Of a stretch of DNA of 47,129 nucleotides, positions 14,915 to 24,798 are shown piece after piece. The DNA is from Desulfobacterales bacterium. Lineage in GTDB: Bacteria > Desulfobacterota > Desulfobacteria > Desulfobacterales > Desulfatibacillaceae. Positions within the stretch are counted from its first letter, which is position 1; every line of letters starts with the position of its first letter. The notes beneath the pieces were generated by a model. That model ran no database searches. It saw nothing but the letters and a program-made list of their open reading frames with translations, and was not told the DNA's origin. The stretch covers positions 1 through 47,129 of the forward strand of contig JAGVAW010000303.1 in the NCBI GenBank assembly GCA_020060085.1, in the 5' to 3' direction. Made by a program: the position numbers and the translations under genes.

Positions 14915-16231
14915 ATGCTATATGGGGCTGCCTTGGACGCTGTAACCACCCACAACAGCACAGACTTTGATGCGCTGGCCTCCCTGGTGGCCTGCGGGCT
15001 GCTTCATCCCCAGGCAAAGCTGGTGCTTCCCACCCGTGTAAATCCCAATGTGAAGGCTTTTTTATCCATCCACAAAGATCTTTTCACCTTTGCATCTGCC
15101 AAAGAGGTGACAAGCGCCAAGGTTGACAACCTTTTTGTGGTGGATACCAACCAATGGAAACGCATAGACAAGTTAAGCGCACTAAAGGGCAAGGTGGGCA
15201 AGGTGCATGTGTGGGATCACCACGGCGCCGAAACTGATATGGCCCCGGTTTTTGAGTGCGAGGCTTCTGTCGGGGCCTGCACCACCCTGCTTGTGGAGGA
15301 GTTGAGGGAAAATGGGAAGGCCATTACCCCCATGCAGGCCACGCTTTTTCTGGCAGGCATTTATGAGGATACCGGAAACCTCACCTTTCCTTCCACCACT
15401 TCCCGCGATGCCCATGCTGTGGGCTATCTGCTTGAAAACCACGGCGAGCTTGATGTTTTGGAGAACTTTCTGCGCCCGGCCTACGGGCCAAAGCAAAAAG
15501 ACCTTCTAAACGAGATGATTGGCAAGGCCCAGCGCATAAAGGTCAACGGCCATGCCATAGCCCTTTGCCAGTTGGAGCTTACCGGCCATGCCTACGGCCT
15601 TTCCCTTGTGGTGCACATGGCCAGAGATATTTTGAATGTGGATGCAGCCTTTGGCATTTTCACGGATATTGAGCAGAAGCGCTCCATTGTGATAGGCCGC
15701 TCCGGTGTGGAAAGCATTGATGTGGGAGCCATGATGCGGGTCATGGGCGGCGGTGGCCACCCCTCGGCAGGCTCTGCCATGTTAAAGGATGTGGACAACC
15801 CTGCCGGTGTTCAGGAATGGGTGTTGGAGCTTTTGAAGGACAACCGCCGCAGCGTGGTTCAAATAGGCGATCTGATGAGCTTTCCTGTGGAGAGCTTTAG
15901 CCCGGAAACCACTATGGAGGAGGCGGCCCGGATACTCAAAGAACGGGGTTTTTCCGGTATGCCTGTTGTGGATGACGGCGTTCTTGTGGGCATTTTGTCC
16001 ATCCGCGATGTGGAAAAGGCCAAGAGCGGCTCGCAGAAAAAGCAGCCGGTAAAGGCTTTCATGGCCCGCAACATTTTTACCGCTCCGCCGGACATGAGCG
16101 TTCCCCGCGCTGCCCGCCTGATGGTCAAGTACGACATAGGGCGAATTCCCGTGGTGGAAAACGGCAAGCTCATAGGCATATTCACCCGGTCTGACGCCAT
16201 GCTTTATTATTACGACCTGCTTCCCGAATAA
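14915..16231 (+). CDS. DHH/DHHA1 phosphoesterase fused to a CBS-domain pair
   Basis: VTTHNSTDFDALASL, VWDHHGAETD (DHH motif), MGGGGHPSAGSAM (DHHA1), then two CBS repeats (MSFPVESFSPETTMEEAARILKERGFSGMPVVDDGVLVGILSIRDVEKA...). Confidence 0.9.
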   Translation: MLYGAALDAVTTHNSTDFDALASLVACGLLHPQAKLVLPTRVNPNVKAFLSIHKDLFTFASAKEVTSAKVDNLFVVDTNQWKRIDKLSALKGKVGKVHVWDHHGAETDMAPVFECEASVGACTTLLVEELRENGKAITPMQATLFLAGIYEDTGNLTFPSTTSRDAHAVGYLLENHGELDVLENFLRPAYGPKQKDLLNEMIGKAQRIKVNGHAIALCQLELTGHAYGLSLVVHMARDILNVDAAFGIFTDIEQKRSIVIGRSGVESIDVGAMMRVMGGGGHPSAGSAMLKDVDNPAGVQEWVLELLKDNRRSVVQIGDLMSFPVESFSPETTMEEAARILKERGFSGMPVVDDGVLVGILSIRDVEKAKSGSQKKQPVKAFMARNIFTAPPDMSVPRAARLMVKYDIGRIPVVENGKLIGIFTRSDAMLYYYDLLPE

Positions 16232-16300: not shown

Positions 16301-16750
16301 GTGAAACTGGTAAAAGACATAATGACAACAGAGGTGATAACCCTTGCCCCGGATACGGGGGTCACCCAGGCAGCCAAAATACTGCTGGAAAACCACATAA
16401 ACGGCGCTCCTGTGTTGGATGGAGACGGAAAAATCCTTGGCATCCTCTGCCAGAGCGATCTCATAACCGCCCAAAAGCGCTTTCCACTGCCAAGCATTTT
16501 CACTTTGCTGGACGGGCTTATTCCGCTTCGCAGCCAGTCGGACATAGAAAGAGAGCTTGGCAAGATGGCTGCGGTAACCGTGGAAAAGGCCATGACAACA
16601 AAGGTTGTAACCGTAAGCCCAAATGCCACGATCGAAGATGCAGCAACGCTCATGGTGGAAAAAAAGTTCCACACCCTGCCCGTGGTGGATGGCAAAAAAC
16701 TTGTGGGAATTCTGGGCAAGGAGGACATTTTAAAGGTGGTTGCCGGATAA
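16301..16750 (+). CDS. CBS domain-pair protein
   Basis: MKLVKDIMTTEVITLAPDTGVTQAAKILLENHINGAPVLDGDGKILGILCQSDLI...KAMTTKVVTVSPNATIEDAATLMVEKKFHTLPVVDGKKLVGILGKEDIL; GTG start. Confidence 0.93.
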   Translation: MKLVKDIMTTEVITLAPDTGVTQAAKILLENHINGAPVLDGDGKILGILCQSDLITAQKRFPLPSIFTLLDGLIPLRSQSDIERELGKMAAVTVEKAMTTKVVTVSPNATIEDAATLMVEKKFHTLPVVDGKKLVGILGKEDILKVVAG

Positions 16751-16842
16751 GGTAGTGCATTGTACCTACAAAAATGGCCCGGCAAGATGGTTTTTTGGGG
16801 CAGTGCGGGAAAGAAGTTTTTTTAGGCTGCAAAAAAAAGAGC

Positions 16843-16871
16843 TTGACAAAGCCAGGGCCTTTTCCTTATTT
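16843..16871 (+). promoter_or_regulatory. Candidate promoter of the trp operon
   Basis: TTGACA at 16843-16848 with a T-rich weak -10 (TTATTT/TATTTG) 17-18 nt downstream, ~45 nt before the leader peptide. Confidence 0.5.
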
Positions 16872-16913
16872 GAAAATGAAGCTGTTAATTTCAACTTTTT
16901 GGAGCAACTTCCC

Positions 16914-17006
16914 ATGTCGGCAGTCCATAACTTAAAGAGCGTGTTTGTGGCTTGGCTCTGGTGGTGGCCCATGGGGAGGTGCCCTTTAGGTTCGCTGCTG
17001 CGCTGA
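16914..17006 (+). CDS. trpL: Tryptophan-rich leader peptide (30 aa): MSAVHNLKSVFVAWLWWWPMGRCPLGSLLR
   Basis: Short ORF with 4 Trp codons in 5 (WLWWW), GGAG upstream, followed by an intrinsic terminator and then aroF/trp genes. Confidence 0.88.
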   Translation: MSAVHNLKSVFVAWLWWWPMGRCPLGSLLR

Positions 17007-17030
17007 TAATATCCACATAACAGGCGAGCA

Positions 17031-17073
17031 AAGGATCGCGGGTCACCTAACAAGGCCTGCGGTCCTTTTTTTA
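17031..17073 (+). terminator. trp attenuator (intrinsic terminator)
   Basis: AAGGATCGCGGG / CCTGCGGTCCTT 12-bp stem (two G-U wobbles) followed by a T run. A competing pairing AGGTGCCC (16977-16984) with GGGTCACCT (17040-17048) can act as antiterminator. Confidence 0.85.
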
Positions 17074-17161
17074 TTTTTTAAGGGCTGTGGGCGAAAAAAA
17101 CGCCCCGGCCCTTTGTTTTTGCCACAAGGGGAGCAAAATTTGGCTCCAGGGAGATTTTCCC

Positions 17162-18193
17162 ATGCTTCTGGTAATGCACAAGGATGCAACAAAAGAGCAG
17201 ATTGATGCTGTGATGGCAGCCGTGGAAAAGCTTGGCTGCACTCCAAGGCCCATTCCCGGCGGAATGCGCGTTGCCATTGGGATCCTCTACAACAAGGGGC
17301 CTGTGGACAGGGGGCATTTTCTTTCCCTGCCAGGCGTGCAGGAGGCCATACCCGTAACAAGGCCCTACAAGCTTGTAAGCCGAGAGGTAAAGGCCCAGGA
17401 TACGGTTGTGGATGTGGGCGGCGTGCCTTTGGGAAACGGCCACTTCACCCTTATTGCAGGCCCCTGCGCTGTGGAGAGTTTGGAGCAGGCCATGACAATC
17501 GCCCAAAAGGTGAAGGATGCAGGGGCCTTGATTTTCCGGGGCGGGGCCTTCAAGCCGCGCACTTCCCCCTATGCCTTTCAGGGACTTGGCGAGGAGGGGC
17601 TTAAAATTCTTGCCAAAGTCAGGGAGAAAACCGGGCTTCGCATTGTAACAGAGGCAATGGATTCTACTGAATTTGACATGGTGGAGCATTACGCGGACAT
17701 GATTCAGATAGGTGCGCGCAATATGCAGAACTTTTCCCTTTTGCGCCGGGCCGGGCATTGCGCTAAACCCGTTATGCTAAAAAGGGGAATGTCATCCACC
17801 ATAGATGAATGGCTCATGGCAGCCGAATACATAATGGAGGCCGGAAACCCCCAGGTGGTGCTGTGCGAAAGGGGCTTGAGAACCTTTGCAGTGCACAGCC
17901 GCAATACTTTAGATCTCTCCGCCGTGCCTGTGGTGAAAAAGGAGAGCCATCTGCCTGTTATTGCAGACCCCTCCCATGCTGCCGGACACAGGGAGCAGGT
18001 GGGGCCGCTATCCCTGGCCGCAGCAGCGGTGGGGGTTCACGGACTGATGATAGAGGTTCATCATGCGCCCCACGAGGCCTTGTCTGACGGGGGTCAGAGC
18101 CTTTACCCGGAGCAGTTTTCAGCCCTGGCAAATGATATAAGGCGAATCGTGGAGGTTGTGAACCCCGGCTGCCCGGAGGTGTGCCGCTCATGA
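17162..18193 (+). CDS. aroF: 3-deoxy-7-phosphoheptulonate synthase, AroF/type I-beta with N-terminal ferredoxin-like regulatory domain
   Basis: MLLVMHKDATKEQIDAVMAAVEKLG...LIAGPCAVESLEQAM...LIFRGGAFKPRTSPYAFQGLGEEGL...IADPSHAAGHR. Confidence 0.95.
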   Translation: MLLVMHKDATKEQIDAVMAAVEKLGCTPRPIPGGMRVAIGILYNKGPVDRGHFLSLPGVQEAIPVTRPYKLVSREVKAQDTVVDVGGVPLGNGHFTLIAGPCAVESLEQAMTIAQKVKDAGALIFRGGAFKPRTSPYAFQGLGEEGLKILAKVREKTGLRIVTEAMDSTEFDMVEHYADMIQIGARNMQNFSLLRRAGHCAKPVMLKRGMSSTIDEWLMAAEYIMEAGNPQVVLCERGLRTFAVHSRNTLDLSAVPVVKKESHLPVIADPSHAAGHREQVGPLSLAAAAVGVHGLMIEVHHAPHEALSDGGQSLYPEQFSALANDIRRIVEVVNPGCPEVCRS

Positions 18194-19659
18194 TACTTTC
18201 CTCTTATCCTTCTCAAGACAAATTTGTGGAAATGGCCCAAAAGGGCAACTGCATTCCCGTGTGCATGGAAGTTCTGGCAGATACAATCACGCCTGTCAGC
18301 GTTCTTCTTCTGCACGCCCAAAAGGGAAAGCCCCTTTTTCTTTTGGAGAGCGTTGAGGGCGGCGAGCGCTGGGGCCGTTACAGTTTTCTGGGCGGCTCGG
18401 CCCGCTGCCAGGTAAAGGTTTTTGCAGATGAGGTTTGTGTGGAAGAGGGCGGGCAGACCAGGAAAATCGCCCACAACGGCAGGCCGCTGGAAATTCTGCG
18501 CCAGGTGATGAGACCTTACAGGCCGGTCACTCTGCCCCAGCTTCCCCGCTTCTGGGGCGGCATGGTGGGCTATCTCACCTATGAAATGGTTTCCTTTTTC
18601 GAGCGCATTGCCCACAAACTGCCGCCGGATAAGCCCCTTGCACATTTCATTGTAACTGACGAGCTTTATATCTTTGACAATGTGCGCCACACACTTACTT
18701 TGCTGGCCCATGTTTTTCTGGAAAAGGGCGTTGATCCTAAACAGGCTTATGCAGATGCCCGGAAAAGGCTGGAAAAAATGCTGAAAACCCTTTCCGGGCC
18801 TGTGCCTGTTGAAGATGCATCCAGGCAAAAACCTGGCCGCCTTGTCCCGAAAGATGATGAGGCAATCTACAAAAAAAATGTCGGGCGCATAAAGGAATAT
18901 ATAAAGGCAGGGGATGTGATTCAGACTGTCATCAGCCAGTCCTTTGTGTGCGAGCCTTCGCCGGACCCGGCAAGCCTTTATCGGGCAATGCGCTTTGTAA
19001 ACCCATCTCCCTATATGTTTTACCTGGAAACAGGGGATGGTGCCCTTGTGGGAAGCTCGCCGGAAACAATGGTGCGCCTGGAAAACCGGATGGCAACCCT
19101 GCGGCCCATTGCCGGAACCCGCAGGCGGGGGCAAACCCAGCAGGAGGACAGGGCGCTTGCTGACGAGCTTTTGGCTGACCCAAAGGAAAAGGCAGAGCAC
19201 CTTATGCTTGTTGATTTGGGCAGAAACGACCTGGGCAGGGTGGCAATAACAGGCACGGTTCAGGTTACGGATCTCATGTTTGTGGAGAGATATTCCCATG
19301 TCATGCACCTTGTGAGCAACATTGCCTGCGATCTGGATTCTGCCTATGACGGCTGGGATTTGCTGGCAGCCACCTTTCCTGCGGGAACCCTTTCCGGCGC
19401 ACCAAAGGTAAGGGCAATGGAGATAATTGCTGAACTGGAGGACTCTCCCCGCGGGCCTTACGGCGGGGCTGTGGGCTATTTTTCCTTTACCGGCAACATG
19501 GATTTTGCCATCACCATACGCACGGCAAGCATTGAGAACAATATCTGCACGGTGCGGGCAGGGGCAGGCATTGTGGCGGATTCTGACCCGGAATCCGAAA
19601 ACGCTGAATCAATAAACAAGGCCGGGGCCATTCACAGAGCCATTGAGCTTGTTTCATAA
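18190..19659 (+). CDS. trpE: Anthranilate synthase component I
   Basis: FLLESVEGGERWGRYSFLG (Trp-binding motif), SPYMFYLETGDGALVGSSPETMVRLE, PIAGTRRRG, DLGRNDLGRV; ATGA overlap with aroF. Confidence 0.97.
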   Translation: MILSSYPSQDKFVEMAQKGNCIPVCMEVLADTITPVSVLLLHAQKGKPLFLLESVEGGERWGRYSFLGGSARCQVKVFADEVCVEEGGQTRKIAHNGRPLEILRQVMRPYRPVTLPQLPRFWGGMVGYLTYEMVSFFERIAHKLPPDKPLAHFIVTDELYIFDNVRHTLTLLAHVFLEKGVDPKQAYADARKRLEKMLKTLSGPVPVEDASRQKPGRLVPKDDEAIYKKNVGRIKEYIKAGDVIQTVISQSFVCEPSPDPASLYRAMRFVNPSPYMFYLETGDGALVGSSPETMVRLENRMATLRPIAGTRRRGQTQQEDRALADELLADPKEKAEHLMLVDLGRNDLGRVAITGTVQVTDLMFVERYSHVMHLVSNIACDLDSAYDGWDLLAATFPAGTLSGAPKVRAMEIIAELEDSPRGPYGGAVGYFSFTGNMDFAITIRTASIENNICTVRAGAGIVADSDPESENAESINKAGAIHRAIELVS

Positions 19660-19684
19660 CGGATTAAATGCAGAGGGATAAGCC

Positions 19685-20257
19685 ATGATACTCATGATAG
19701 ACAACTACGACTCATTCACCTACAACTTGGTTCAATACCTTAAAATTCTCGGCGCTGCCGTAAGGGTTGTTCGTAACGACTCGGCAACAGTGGATGAGGC
19801 CTTGAACCCCATGCCTGCCGGCCTGGTGGTCAGCCCTGGCCCCAAAAGGCCCGAAGATGCAGGCATTTCCATGAGCGCAATTGAAAGGTGTGCAGGCAAA
19901 ATCCCTGTTCTTGGCGTCTGCCTGGGTCACCAGTGCATCGGTGCGCTTTATGGCGGCAAGGTTGGCGGGGCAAAACAGCTCATGCACGGCAAGACATCGC
20001 TGATAACCGCAGACGGCATGGGCGTTTATAAGGGAATAAAAAGCCCCTTTGAGGCCATGCGCTACCACAGCCTTGCGGTCATGGAGGAAAACCTGCCGGA
20101 CTGCCTTGTTGTTACCGCCCGGTCTGATGACGGCGAAATAATGGGTCTGCGCCACAGAAAGCTTATGGTGGAGGGCATTCAGTTTCATCCTGAATCCATA
20201 ATGACCCAGGTGGGCAAGCGCCTTCTCCGCAATTTTCTTGAAACCACAACAAGTTAG
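19685..20257 (+). CDS. trpG: Anthranilate synthase component II (glutamine amidotransferase)
   Basis: MILMIDNYDSFTYNLVQYL, VLGVCLGHQCIG, GIQFHPESIMT. Confidence 0.97.
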   Translation: MILMIDNYDSFTYNLVQYLKILGAAVRVVRNDSATVDEALNPMPAGLVVSPGPKRPEDAGISMSAIERCAGKIPVLGVCLGHQCIGALYGGKVGGAKQLMHGKTSLITADGMGVYKGIKSPFEAMRYHSLAVMEENLPDCLVVTARSDDGEIMGLRHRKLMVEGIQFHPESIMTQVGKRLLRNFLETTTS

Positions 20258-20277
20258 AATAACAGGAGATAAAGCCA

Positions 20278-21291
20278 ATGATTAAAGAAGCAATTAAACA
20301 AGTTGTGGCTGGCGGGGACCTTGGGGAGGACCAGGCTGATCAGGTCATGGATTTTATAATGCAAGGCAATGCAACCCCATCGCAGATAGGTGCTTTCATG
20401 GCCGTCCTTGCCTCAAAGGGAGAAACCTTTGCCGAACTTGCCGGGGCAGCCAGGGCCATGCGCCGCAGGGCGGTGCGGGTTCAGGCTCTGACAAGCGCAG
20501 TTGTGGATACCTGCGGCACAGGGGGTGACAGCCTTAACACCTTCAACATTTCCACAACAGCCGCCTTTGTTGTGGCAGGTTGCGGAGTGACCGTGGCCAA
20601 GCACGGAAACCGCTCTGTTTCCAGCCTTTGCGGCAGCGCAGATGTGCTTGAGGCTTTGGGGGTTAACCTGAATGTTGACCCGGAAATAACCGAGGAGGCC
20701 ATTAACACAATAGGCATAGGCTTTCTTTTTGCGCCCAAACATCACGGGGCCATGAAGCACGCGGCCCTGCCCAGAAAAGAGGTGGGCATCCGCTCCATTT
20801 TTAACATGCTTGGCCCCCTGACAAACCCGGCAGGGGCCAACTGCCAGTTGCTTGGCGTTTATGCAGCGCCATTGACGGAAATGTTTGCCCAGGCCTTGAA
20901 ATTGCTTGGTGCGCGCCGGGCCTTTGTGGTTCACGGCCATGATGGAATGGATGAAATTTCCGTGTGCGCGCCCACCCGCATAACCGAGCTTTTTGAAGGA
21001 AATATAAAGACCTATGATGTGACCCCGGAGCAACTGACAGGAAAGACCTACTCCCTTGCCGATATTGCAGGCGGGAATGCAGAAGATAACGCAGCAATAA
21101 CCAGAAGCGTGCTTTCCGGCAAAAAAGGCCCTTGCCAGGACATTGTGGCTGCCAATGCCGGGGCTGCGCTGGTGGCCGCAGGTAAGGCGGCAAATTTTAA
21201 TGAGGGCATACAAATGGCCCGCTTGGTCATGGAAAACGGCAGGGCAAAAGAAAAACTTGAGGCCCTGGCAGCCTTCACCCGGCAGGCATAA
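20278..21291 (+). CDS. trpD: Anthranilate phosphoribosyltransferase
   Basis: VDTCGTGGDSLNTFNISTTAAFVVAGCGVTVAKHGNRSVSS, MLGPLTNPAGA. Confidence 0.97.
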   Translation: MIKEAIKQVVAGGDLGEDQADQVMDFIMQGNATPSQIGAFMAVLASKGETFAELAGAARAMRRRAVRVQALTSAVVDTCGTGGDSLNTFNISTTAAFVVAGCGVTVAKHGNRSVSSLCGSADVLEALGVNLNVDPEITEEAINTIGIGFLFAPKHHGAMKHAALPRKEVGIRSIFNMLGPLTNPAGANCQLLGVYAAPLTEMFAQALKLLGARRAFVVHGHDGMDEISVCAPTRITELFEGNIKTYDVTPEQLTGKTYSLADIAGGNAEDNAAITRSVLSGKKGPCQDIVAANAGAALVAAGKAANFNEGIQMARLVMENGRAKEKLEALAAFTRQA

Positions 21292-21303
21292 GGCGCTTAA
21301 ATC

Positions 21304-22107
21304 ATGAAGCCTGAAAACTTTTTAAATAAAATAATTGAGTCAAAAAAGGCCCAGGTTCAAAAAACCAAAAGCCTTGTTCCGCAAAAAGAGCTGCAAAACC
21401 TTATGGATGGCCCTTTGCCCGCGCGCCGGGGCTTTTTTGCCGCCCTTTTAAAACCGGGGCCAAAAGGGGCCAACATAATTGCGGAGATCAAGAGGGCAAG
21501 TCCTTCCAAGGGACTTATCCGGCCTGATTTGGACCCTGCCCAAATTGCACTTCAATACAGCCAGGGCGGGGCCGCGGCCCTTTCCGTGCTCACGGAAACA
21601 CAGTTTTTCCTGGCCCAGGAAAACGACCTTGCACTTGCCCGTCAGGCAGTTTCCCTGCCTGTTTTGCGCAAGGATTTTATTGTTGATGAGTACCAGATAT
21701 GGGAAACGGCAGCTCTTGGGGCAGATGCATTTTTGCTCATTGCTGCTGCAATTTCCGATGACTTTTTGCGCCAGGCCCTGGATTTAGGCCGCAGGCTCAA
21801 AATTGACGCCCTTGTGGAGGTGCATGACAGCCACGAGCTTGAAAGAGCGCTGGCCGCAGGTGCAGGGCTTGTGGGCATTAACAACCGGAATTTGAAAACC
21901 TTTGAAACGGACCTGGCTGTTACGGAAAAGCTCTCGCTGCTGTTGGAGCCGGGCGTAACTGCAGTGTGCGAAAGCGGCATAAAAGGCATTGATGACATAA
22001 GGCGCATCCAGCAGGCAGGGGTTTTCAACTTTCTTGTGGGCGAAAGCCTCATGCGGGCGCAAAACCCGGGCGCAGCCCTTGGCGAGCTTTTGGGGGAAAC
22101 CCCATGA
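21304..22107 (+). CDS. trpC: Indole-3-glycerol phosphate synthase
   Basis: NIIAEIKRASPSKGLIRPDLDPAQIA, LRKDFIVDEYQIWE, VGINNRNLKTFETDL, ESGIKGIDDI. Confidence 0.97.
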   Translation: MKPENFLNKIIESKKAQVQKTKSLVPQKELQNLMDGPLPARRGFFAALLKPGPKGANIIAEIKRASPSKGLIRPDLDPAQIALQYSQGGAAALSVLTETQFFLAQENDLALARQAVSLPVLRKDFIVDEYQIWETAALGADAFLLIAAAISDDFLRQALDLGRRLKIDALVEVHDSHELERALAAGAGLVGINNRNLKTFETDLAVTEKLSLLLEPGVTAVCESGIKGIDDIRRIQQAGVFNFLVGESLMRAQNPGAALGELLGETP

Positions 22108-22769
22108 AAGAGAGCGTGCAGGTCAAAATTTGCGGCATAACCTTGCCAAAGCAGGCTCTTGTTTGCGCCAAAGCCGGGGCAGACGCCATAGGGCTTGTGT
22201 TTTATCCCAAAAGCCCGCGCTTTGTTAAAAGAGAAACAGCGCGGGAAATTTGCCTTGCAGCAGAGGAGGCGGGTGTTGCCAGGGTTGGGGTCTTTGTGGA
22301 TGAGGCCATTGAAGTCATATTGGATACAGCCCATTTTTGCGGTCTTAACTTTGTGCAGCTTCATGGAGCGGAAAGCCCGCAGGCTGTTGCCAGAATTCAA
22401 AAAGCGGGAATTGGGGTGATAAAGGCCCTTTTTTTGAACAAGGAGCCGGGCTTTGAAAAGGCAAGCGATTACCCTGCCAAAGCTTTTCTTGCGGAATGCG
22501 CGGGCAAGGCACTGCCAGGAGGCAACGCCCTTGCATGGGACTGGGGGCTGGCAGGCAGTCTTCGCAATTCCGGGCCGCTTATCTTGGCTGGCGGGCTTGA
22601 CCCTCAAAACGCAGTGCAAGCCATCTTGGCTGCCTGGCCCGATGCCTTGGATGTAAGCTCCGGCGTGGAGGACAGACCCGGACAGAAAAATCCCGGCAAG
22701 GTGGAGCAGTTTGTCAGCAAGGTCAAGGAGCAATCCATTTCATACAAAATAAGGAGCGTTTTTTTATGA
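22104..22769 (+). CDS. trpF: Phosphoribosylanthranilate isomerase
   Basis: [51 protein letters not shown]-like, [18 protein letters not shown] overlap with trpC. Confidence 0.95.
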
Positions 22770-24001
22770 ACCCCACAGAAAACCGCCAGCATGATCAAAT
22801 GCCGAATCAAAGGGGATATTTCGGCTCCTTTGGAGGCAGGTATGTGGCGGAAACACTCATGCCGGCAATACTTGAGCTGGAAGCTGCCTATGACAAGGCA
22901 AAGCAGGATGCTGCCTTCCAGAAGGAATTGAGCCATCTGCTGAAAAACTATGCAGGCAGGCCCACGCCCTTGTATTTTGCAAAAAACCTTACGGATTACG
23001 CCAAAGGTGCGCGCATTTATCTCAAAAGGGAGGACCTTGCCCACACCGGGGCCCACAAGATCAACAACACGCTGGGTCAGGCGCTTTTGGCCCGGCACAT
23101 GGGCAAAAAAAAGGTGATTGCCGAAACAGGCGCAGGCCAGCACGGGGTTGCAACAGCCACGGCAGCCGCCCTTTTGGGAATGGAATGCACGGTTTTTATG
23201 GGGGTGGAAGATGTTGCCCGGCAGGAGCCAAATGTAAAACGCATGGAGCTTTTGGGTGCAAGGGTTGTACCCGTGCCTTCGGGAACCGGCACATTAAAGG
23301 ATGCCATGAACGAGGCCATGCGCTACTGGGTGGGCGCTGTCAAGGACACCTACTATGTAATAGGCTCTGTGGCCGGGCCTCACCCTTATCCCATGATGGT
23401 GCGTGACTTTCAGCAGATAATAGGAATTGAAGCGCGCGAGCAGATTCTAAAAGAAGAGGGCAGGCTTGCAGATATGCTTGTGGCCTGTGTGGGCGGAGGC
23501 AGCAATGCAATGGGCCTTTTTTACCCCTTCCGCAATGATTCCGTTGAAATGGTGGGGGTGGAGGCAGGCGGAACAGGTGTTCCAAACGGCAAGCACGCTG
23601 CCACCCTTTGTGCCGGCTCGGTGGGGGTGCTGCATGGGTCCAAAAGCTATCTGCTCCAGACGGCTGACGGCCAGATTCAGGAGGCCCACTCCATTTCCGC
23701 AGGGCTGGACTATCCGGGTGTAGGCCCGGAGCATTCCTATTTTAAGGATCTCAAAAGGGCGCGCTATGTCTGGGTGCTTGATGACGCAGTTCTGAAAGCC
23801 TTTCACCTGCTTTCAAGAACCGAAGGCATACTTCCTGCCCTTGAAAGCTCCCACGCCCTTGCCTGGGCCGTTGAACAGGCAGGCCGCATGGACAGGGACA
23901 AGATTTTGATAGTCAACCTTTCCGGGCGGGGCGACAAGGACCTTGGCATAGTGCTCTCCAAAAAGGAAAGCCAACAACAGGTAAAAGGAGCAAAAAAGTG
24001 A
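22766..24001 (+). CDS. trpB: Tryptophan synthase beta subunit
   Basis: [64 protein letters not shown]; overlaps trpF by ATGA. Confidence 0.98.
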
Positions 24002-24798
24002 GCCTCATTGCCCAAACTTTCAAAAACCTGGAACAAAAGGGCCGGAGGGCCTTGGTGGGTTTTGTGACCGCCGGGGACCCGGATATTGAAAAAAGCCTTG
24101 CAGTAATGGAGGCAATGATTGAAGGCGGATGCGATATCCTTGAAGTGGGCATTCCCTTTTCAGACCCCACAGCAGACGGGCCGGTTATCCAGGCATCCAG
24201 CCAAAGGGCATTGGCAGGGGGCATGAATCTGACAAAGGCCCTTGGCATGGTCAAGGCTCTGCGGCAGCACCATAGCGCGCCCATAGTGCTTTTCTCTTAT
24301 TACAACCCAATTCTTGCCTACGGCGCGGAGCGGTTTTACAGGGATGCCCTGGCTGCCGGGGCAAACGGGCTTCTGGTGGTGGATCTGCCCTTTGAGGAAG
24401 CTGGCGAACTCACCGGAAAATGGCCTGGAAAGGACTTGGACCTTATTCTGCTTGTGGCCCCAACAACTCCCCGCGAGCGCATGGAGCAGATAGCCCTTAA
24501 TGCTTCGGGCTTTATCTACCTTGTTTCCATGACAGGGGTTACAGGCAGCGCGGGCCTGGACCTTGAGCAGGTGACTCATACTGCCAATACCCTAAAATCC
24601 GTCACGGATATACCCATAGCCGTAGGCTTTGGAATATCCACACCGGATCATGTGGCAGCAGTTTCAAAGGTTGCCCAGGGCATAGTGGTGGGAAGCGCAT
24701 TTGAAAGAATAATCGAAAAAAACATAAATGCCACGGATTTGCCTAGCATCATCTTCCAATATGCAAAAACACTTAAAGCTACGGCCCTGAAGCCCTGA
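23998..24798 (+). CDS. trpA: Tryptophan synthase alpha subunit
   Basis: [68 protein letters not shown] overlap with trpB. Confidence 0.97.

Follow-up and report, generated by a model that had tools for sequence, protein, structure and literature searches.

What controls transcription of the aroF-trpEGDCFBA operon in a Desulfobacterales bacterium is a question raised by the DNA just upstream of aroF, where the original prediction placed a tryptophan attenuator. We analyzed this leader within a stretch of 47,129 nucleotides, which we refer to as the window. The genome belongs to the family of Desulfatibacillum, and among the leaders of its relatives, L007/L033 and L015/L035 are from Desulfatibacillum. 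The leader ORF and the genes that follow it are:

Positions 16901 to 16904, forward strand: candidate Shine-Dalgarno sequence GGAG, 9 nt before the ATG.
Positions 16914 to 17006, forward strand: trpL-like leader ORF of 30 codons, MSAVHNLKSVFVAWLWWWPMGRCPLGSLLR, from ATG at 16914 to TGA at 17004-17006, identified from sequence and orthologues.
Positions 17162 to 18193, forward strand: aroF, 3-deoxy-7-phosphoheptulonate (DAHP) synthase, the first structural gene (NCBIfam PRK08673, 482 bits).
Positions 18181 to 24798, forward strand: trpE, trpG, trpD, trpC, trpF, trpB and trpA (NCBIfam).

The original prediction described a Trp-rich ORF of 30 codons that is visible only inside a longer frame, and both statements hold: the ORF is real at 16914-17006, and the ORF list contains the version starting at ATG 16914 only within a 16740-17006 frame. 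Its Trp codons lie at 16953-16955 and 16959-16967, and the codon run TGGNNNTGGTGGTGG occurs once in the window, where none is expected and shuffled sequences never produced one. Across the order, 87 aroF leaders, including that of the window, feature in the same place an ORF with clustered Trp codons, about 32 codons long, and then a terminator hairpin, T1, whose median distance from the stop codon is 25 nt; by chance, a Trp cluster lies upstream of ~1% of random sites. This recurrence of a Trp cluster together with T1 before aroF gives good support to ribosome-mediated trp attenuation, and the sequence very probably encodes such an attenuator. The Shine-Dalgarno candidate, which has a counterpart in L003, is weak evidence since an SD-like motif is present in just 39 of the 87 leaders. 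A search for a sigma-70 consensus promoter upstream of the leader yielded none, with a TTGACA at about 16842 that is without a good -10 element. A T-box covariance model had no match in the window, in which only two tRNAs were found. Farther upstream, judged by sequence only, positions 14915-16231 resemble a DHH/CBS-domain protein and positions 16301-16750 a CBS-pair protein.

Using a custom terminator scan, we detected T1 and also a second terminator, T2. Together with the segments that pair around them, they are arranged as follows:

Positions 16901 to 16916, forward strand: segment 1, which pairs with 16970-16984 and overlaps the start codon.
Positions 16977 to 16993, forward strand: segment 2, the 5' side of the antiterminator (16977-16984 and 16989-16993).
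Positions 17033 to 17048, forward strand: the portion of segment 3 that enters the antiterminator (17033-17037, 17040-17042 and 17044-17048).
Positions 17030 to 17068, forward strand: terminator T1 (3:4), -23.7 kcal/mol, with a T-rich tract to 17079.
Positions 17055 to 17067, forward strand: segment 4, the 3' arm of T1, which is also complementary to segment 5.
Positions 17080 to 17092, forward strand: segment 5, the 5' arm of T2, complementary to segment 4 at 13 of 13 positions, GU included.
Positions 17080 to 17113, forward strand: second terminator T2 (5:6), -23.0 kcal/mol, with the tail TGTTTTTG.

The terminator that had been predicted at 17031-17073 corresponds to T1, which starts 23 nt past the stop codon of the leader ORF and has a loop of 9. 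A pairing of AGGTG-CCC (16977-16984) with GGGT-CACCT (17040-17048) that would hide the 5' arm of T1 had also been predicted, and it is present as the antiterminator AGGTGCCC/GGGTCACCT, which is lengthened by GGTTC (16989-16993) pairing with 17033-17037 and occupies 10 of the 15 bases of that arm. Pairing geometry and folding indicate that the antiterminator excludes T1 and would stay free when a ribosome stalls at the Trp codons. Nearly all leaders have the 2:3 pairing, with GGGGTGTGCCnnCCGGTTC as the consensus of segment 2, and the helix lies about 20-47 nt past the first Trp codon, a distance at which the stalled ribosome would just leave it uncovered. The fold of the leader has a z of -2.4, with equal stability reached in 3 of 200 shuffles.

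Covariation in orthologous leaders, which had been proposed as a check, was found for one of these two helices. T1 covaries strongly, with 94.9% of cells paired and 109 both-side changes among 74 leaders, a level reached in 0 of 500 shuffles. In contrast, the covariation score of 2:3 was not above shuffles (0.173 vs 0.169, 157 of 500), although 67.8% of its cells are paired on the alignment and sliding the helix lowers this value to 52% or less. The 2:3 helix presumably has little room to vary because its bases are shared with another structure and with the coding region. A conserved 1:2 helix was considered and dropped, as its conservation among orthologues is weak (mean z -0.5).

T2, which was absent from the original prediction, sits between T1 and aroF and extends the pairing chain to 1:2, 2:3, T1 (3:4), 4:5 and T2 (5:6). 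By sequence and comparison, 2:3, 3:4, 4:5 and 5:6 are conserved and mutually exclusive helices. The proposed enterobacterial logic of trp attenuation is supported in that the order as a whole conserves the leader peptide, the antiterminator and the terminator, with a geometry that fits ribosome stalling at Trp codons, but its four-segment scheme is incomplete, as this leader contains six segments and two terminators. All 8 family members having this locus encode T2, which was detected in 42 of the 90 leaders scanned; because about half of the trp leaders of the order are without a detected T2, it is not essential to the design. Leaders with only T1, which is then nearer to aroF, account for a large proportion of the trp leaders in Desulfobacterales (L164, L166, L199, L203 and others). 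T1 and T2 are the only tandem terminator pair seen in the window, and the 3' arm of T1 pairs with the 5' arm of T2 at -21.9, as compared with only -6 to -18 for the 5' arms of other strong terminators. A generic terminator consensus was considered as the source of the likeness between T1 and T2 and was rejected, as the other strong terminators of the window have unrelated stems.

Based on this arrangement, we propose that the aroF-trpEGDCFBA operon is probably controlled by an attenuator with two intrinsic terminators wired in relay. When charged tRNA-Trp is scarce, a ribosome would halt on the Trp codons and leave segment 2 free to capture segment 3, and segment 4, released by the 2:3 helix, would then capture segment 5 before segment 6 is synthesized. 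With 2:3 and 4:5 formed, neither T1 nor T2 could form, and polymerase would reach aroF. When Trp is abundant, the ribosome would proceed to the stop codon and block 2:3, which would allow T1 to form. Polymerases that escape T1 would then encounter T2, since segment 4 would be held in T1 and segment 5 would remain available to segment 6. Two terminators in series would thereby lower basal leakage and induction would not be sacrificed.

Folding of the window leader with a ribosome at the Trp codons, another check that had been proposed, agreed with this scheme during transcription. With the ribosome stalled at W16 and RNA extending to 17053, P(2:3) was 0.99 before segment 4 emerged, and with RNA extending to 17093, where segment 5 is out, P(2:3) and P(4:5) were both 0.99 and T1 was absent. 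Placing the ribosome at the stop codon instead gave a P(T1) of 0.84 and a P(4:5) of 0.15. However, when the RNA ended just past segment 4 or segment 6, equilibrium folding preferred T1 or T1 plus T2, respectively, in every ribosome state. Because the full leader at equilibrium always gives T1 plus T2, antitermination would need kinetic trapping, i.e., the ON state would be a kinetic one. Across 39 tandem leaders, the mean P(4:5) was 0.52 for a stalled ribosome and 0.21 for one at the stop codon; the predicted shift exceeded 0.2 in 18 of the 39, was reversed in 3 and was flat in the remainder. Taken over all leaders, the modelled folding favors the relay, although not in each leader by itself.

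A competing explanation is that the locus is a plain four-segment trp attenuator, in which 2:3 competes with T1, T2 is a constitutive backup or leftover duplicate, and 4:5 has no function. That many leaders carry T1 alone fits this explanation, as does the likeness of T1 and T2, which makes some cross-complementarity automatic and also gives rise to a mirror pairing, 3:6. In L044, where T1 and T2 are near-identical, 4:5 and 3:6 are about equal. We therefore used 3:6 as a control for 4:5. Among the 39 tandem leaders, 89.2% of 4:5 cells are paired with 39 both-side changes, and the covariation of 0.382 compares with 0.264 for shuffled alignments (0 of 500); sliding by one column lowers pairing to 56% or less. 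In contrast, 68.4% of 3:6 cells are paired, and covariation was not above shuffles. The 4:5 duplex is the stronger in 36 of the 39 leaders, and native 4:5 segments pair better than GC-matched cross-species pairs (z -4.2, 0 of 5000), whereas those of 3:6 are not clearly better (z -1.6). A U-G wobble at columns 42/75 in 32 of the 39 leaders suits 4:5, in which it pairs, but not 3:6, in which the matching position is unpaired in 34 of 38: segment 4 pairs there with segments 3 (A-U) and 5 (U-G), segment 5 pairs with segment 6 (G-C), and segments 3 and 6 clash. Recent duplication of T1 was rejected for most leaders because a copy of T1 would make 3:6 pair as well as 4:5. In addition, a backup terminator that forms regardless of the ribosome would block induction. 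We consider the plain four-segment explanation unlikely, yet the most serious competitor to the relay.

It is improbable that T1 attenuates alone and that T2 serves in vivo as a stem-loop that acts, in readthrough transcripts, on the translation of aroF or the stability of the mRNA. The T tract that follows T2 is interrupted (TGTTTTTG), and T2 ends only 48 nt upstream of the start codon of aroF, which would suit such a role, as would the weak U tail in some relatives. Most copies of T2, however, have a strong U tail, and a hairpin of such stability with a U tail should terminate transcription. It is very improbable that T1 and T2 simply end transcription of the CBS-domain gene upstream (16301-16750) and that the Trp-rich ORF arose by chance. 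Both terminators do follow that gene on its strand, and no consensus promoter was found in between, but a gap of 280 nt separates them from it, chance Trp clusters are as rare as noted above, and the Trp-rich ORF, its spacing from T1 and the antiterminator recur before aroF in the 87 leaders.

We also investigated whether the tandem arrangement extends beyond the trp leaders of the order, using a covariance model of T1 plus T2 (R1) that was searched in 247 Desulfobacterota genomes and matched many of them. The genome of the window has one strong match, the trp leader at 64 bits, with the next at 28. Scores reached 67 bits in Desulfobacterota, and in 20 genomes of other phyla the best match was 35 bits, with none above 36. 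At 71 of the 79 top R1 loci, an ATG leader ORF features a cluster of Trp, Phe/Tyr or Ile/Leu/Val codons, as compared with 2.6-3.1% of random sites. By gene names taken from protein starts rather than a family search, Trp-rich leaders precede aroF, trpE, trpD and trpB-like genes; Phe/Tyr/Trp-rich leaders precede DAHP synthases (e.g., IFFFWFYFSGYKDRFAWGI, L236), aminotransferases and ABC-transporter binding proteins; and Ile/Leu/Val-rich leaders precede acetolactate-synthase-like and isopropylmalate-synthase-like genes (L243, L246, L262, L293). An Rfam search of 20 R1 loci gave no family match.

Several of these loci differ in the peptide they encode. At L236, L237, L239 and L255, leader ORFs with runs such as FFFWFYF and YYFWFYFY lie about 20 nt before the R1 match and upstream of DAHP-synthase-like genes, and their mixed aromatic composition suggests that one attenuator may sense Phe, Tyr and Trp jointly. 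Phe- or Tyr-rich peptides (GFFFCFFRKG, GYYYYGY) with tandem terminators precede ABC-transporter substrate-binding-like proteins at L267, L278 and L283, hinting at a possible link to aromatic amino-acid uptake. Stand-alone TrpB-like genes have their own Trp-rich leader (e.g., MWWWQAWM) and tandem terminators at L241, L259, L275, L282 and L290.

In the phylum-wide set, 71 tandems were resolved, which were selected on structure and are not the same as the 71 loci with clustered leader ORFs. In 54 of them 4:5 is stronger than 3:6, and 4:5 also outperforms cross pairs. The 3:6 control likewise beats cross pairs in this set (z -4.3), so the likeness of T1 and T2 across the phylum may partly reflect duplication or a shared terminator style, and the R1 matches are a biased sample because the model was trained on trp T1/T2. 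We regard it as evenly balanced whether Desulfobacterota hold a distinct class of leader-peptide attenuator, undescribed and not in Rfam, that would serve trp, aromatic and branched-chain operons, with T1 and T2 wired in relay through a T1 3' arm that acts as antiterminator for T2.

Comparison with known systems places the relay as a variant of known logic. Like the enterobacterial trpL attenuator (Yanofsky; RF00513), the leader has tandem Trp codons in a short ORF and an antiterminator that overlaps the 5' arm of the terminator before a trp operon. Unlike trpL, its first gene is aroF, its peptide is longer (30 codons, with the stop about 40 nt past the Trp run), and it has six segments and two terminators rather than four and one. 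The RF00513 Trp_leader model had no match at the gathering threshold in the window, nor up to E=5 in 16880-17160, and a permissive Rfam search of the leader returned only chance matches far below thresholds (two animal microRNA families and one sRNA). The his attenuator of E. coli and Salmonella comprises segments A-F with stems AB, CD and EF and the alternative DE (PMC10989985), and it shares with this leader six segments, alternating exclusive pairings and the relay of the stalled-ribosome state to the last hairpin (PMC10989985). However, it uses His codons instead of Trp codons, and only EF is described with a uridine run, whereas 3:4 and 5:6 both have terminator form with U tails. For ermK, two adjacent Rho-independent terminators have been reported (as cited in PMC4335068), and its likeness to this leader lies in the leader peptide and the two adjacent terminators; ermK responds to an antibiotic-stalled ribosome and controls a resistance gene, in contrast to the amino-acid supply considered here. 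Trp-rich leader peptides are also found outside Enterobacteria in Sinorhizobium peTrpL and epsilonproteobacterial TrpL, but the accessible parts of those accounts do not include a tandem-terminator relay (PMC7298713, PMC3847290). The rimP leader has tandem terminators and a potential antiterminator but is not an amino-acid leader-peptide system (PMC2965389). In the openly searchable literature, we found nothing on tandem-terminator trp leaders or Desulfobacterota attenuators.

The trp attenuator alone is ordinary, and the relay is an undescribed variant of moderate interest. What appears to be new is the combination of two hairpins that are both terminators, a T1 3' arm that antiterminates T2, and recurrence across the amino-acid operons of the phylum. 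The R1 covariance model is usable for annotating tandem-terminator attenuators. If the relay works as inferred, a leaky terminator would gain a lower OFF state with induction kept, as one antitermination event would disarm both terminators, and Desulfobacterota would depend on ribosome-mediated attenuation as a main form of amino-acid control, one that is invisible to the Rfam searches made here.
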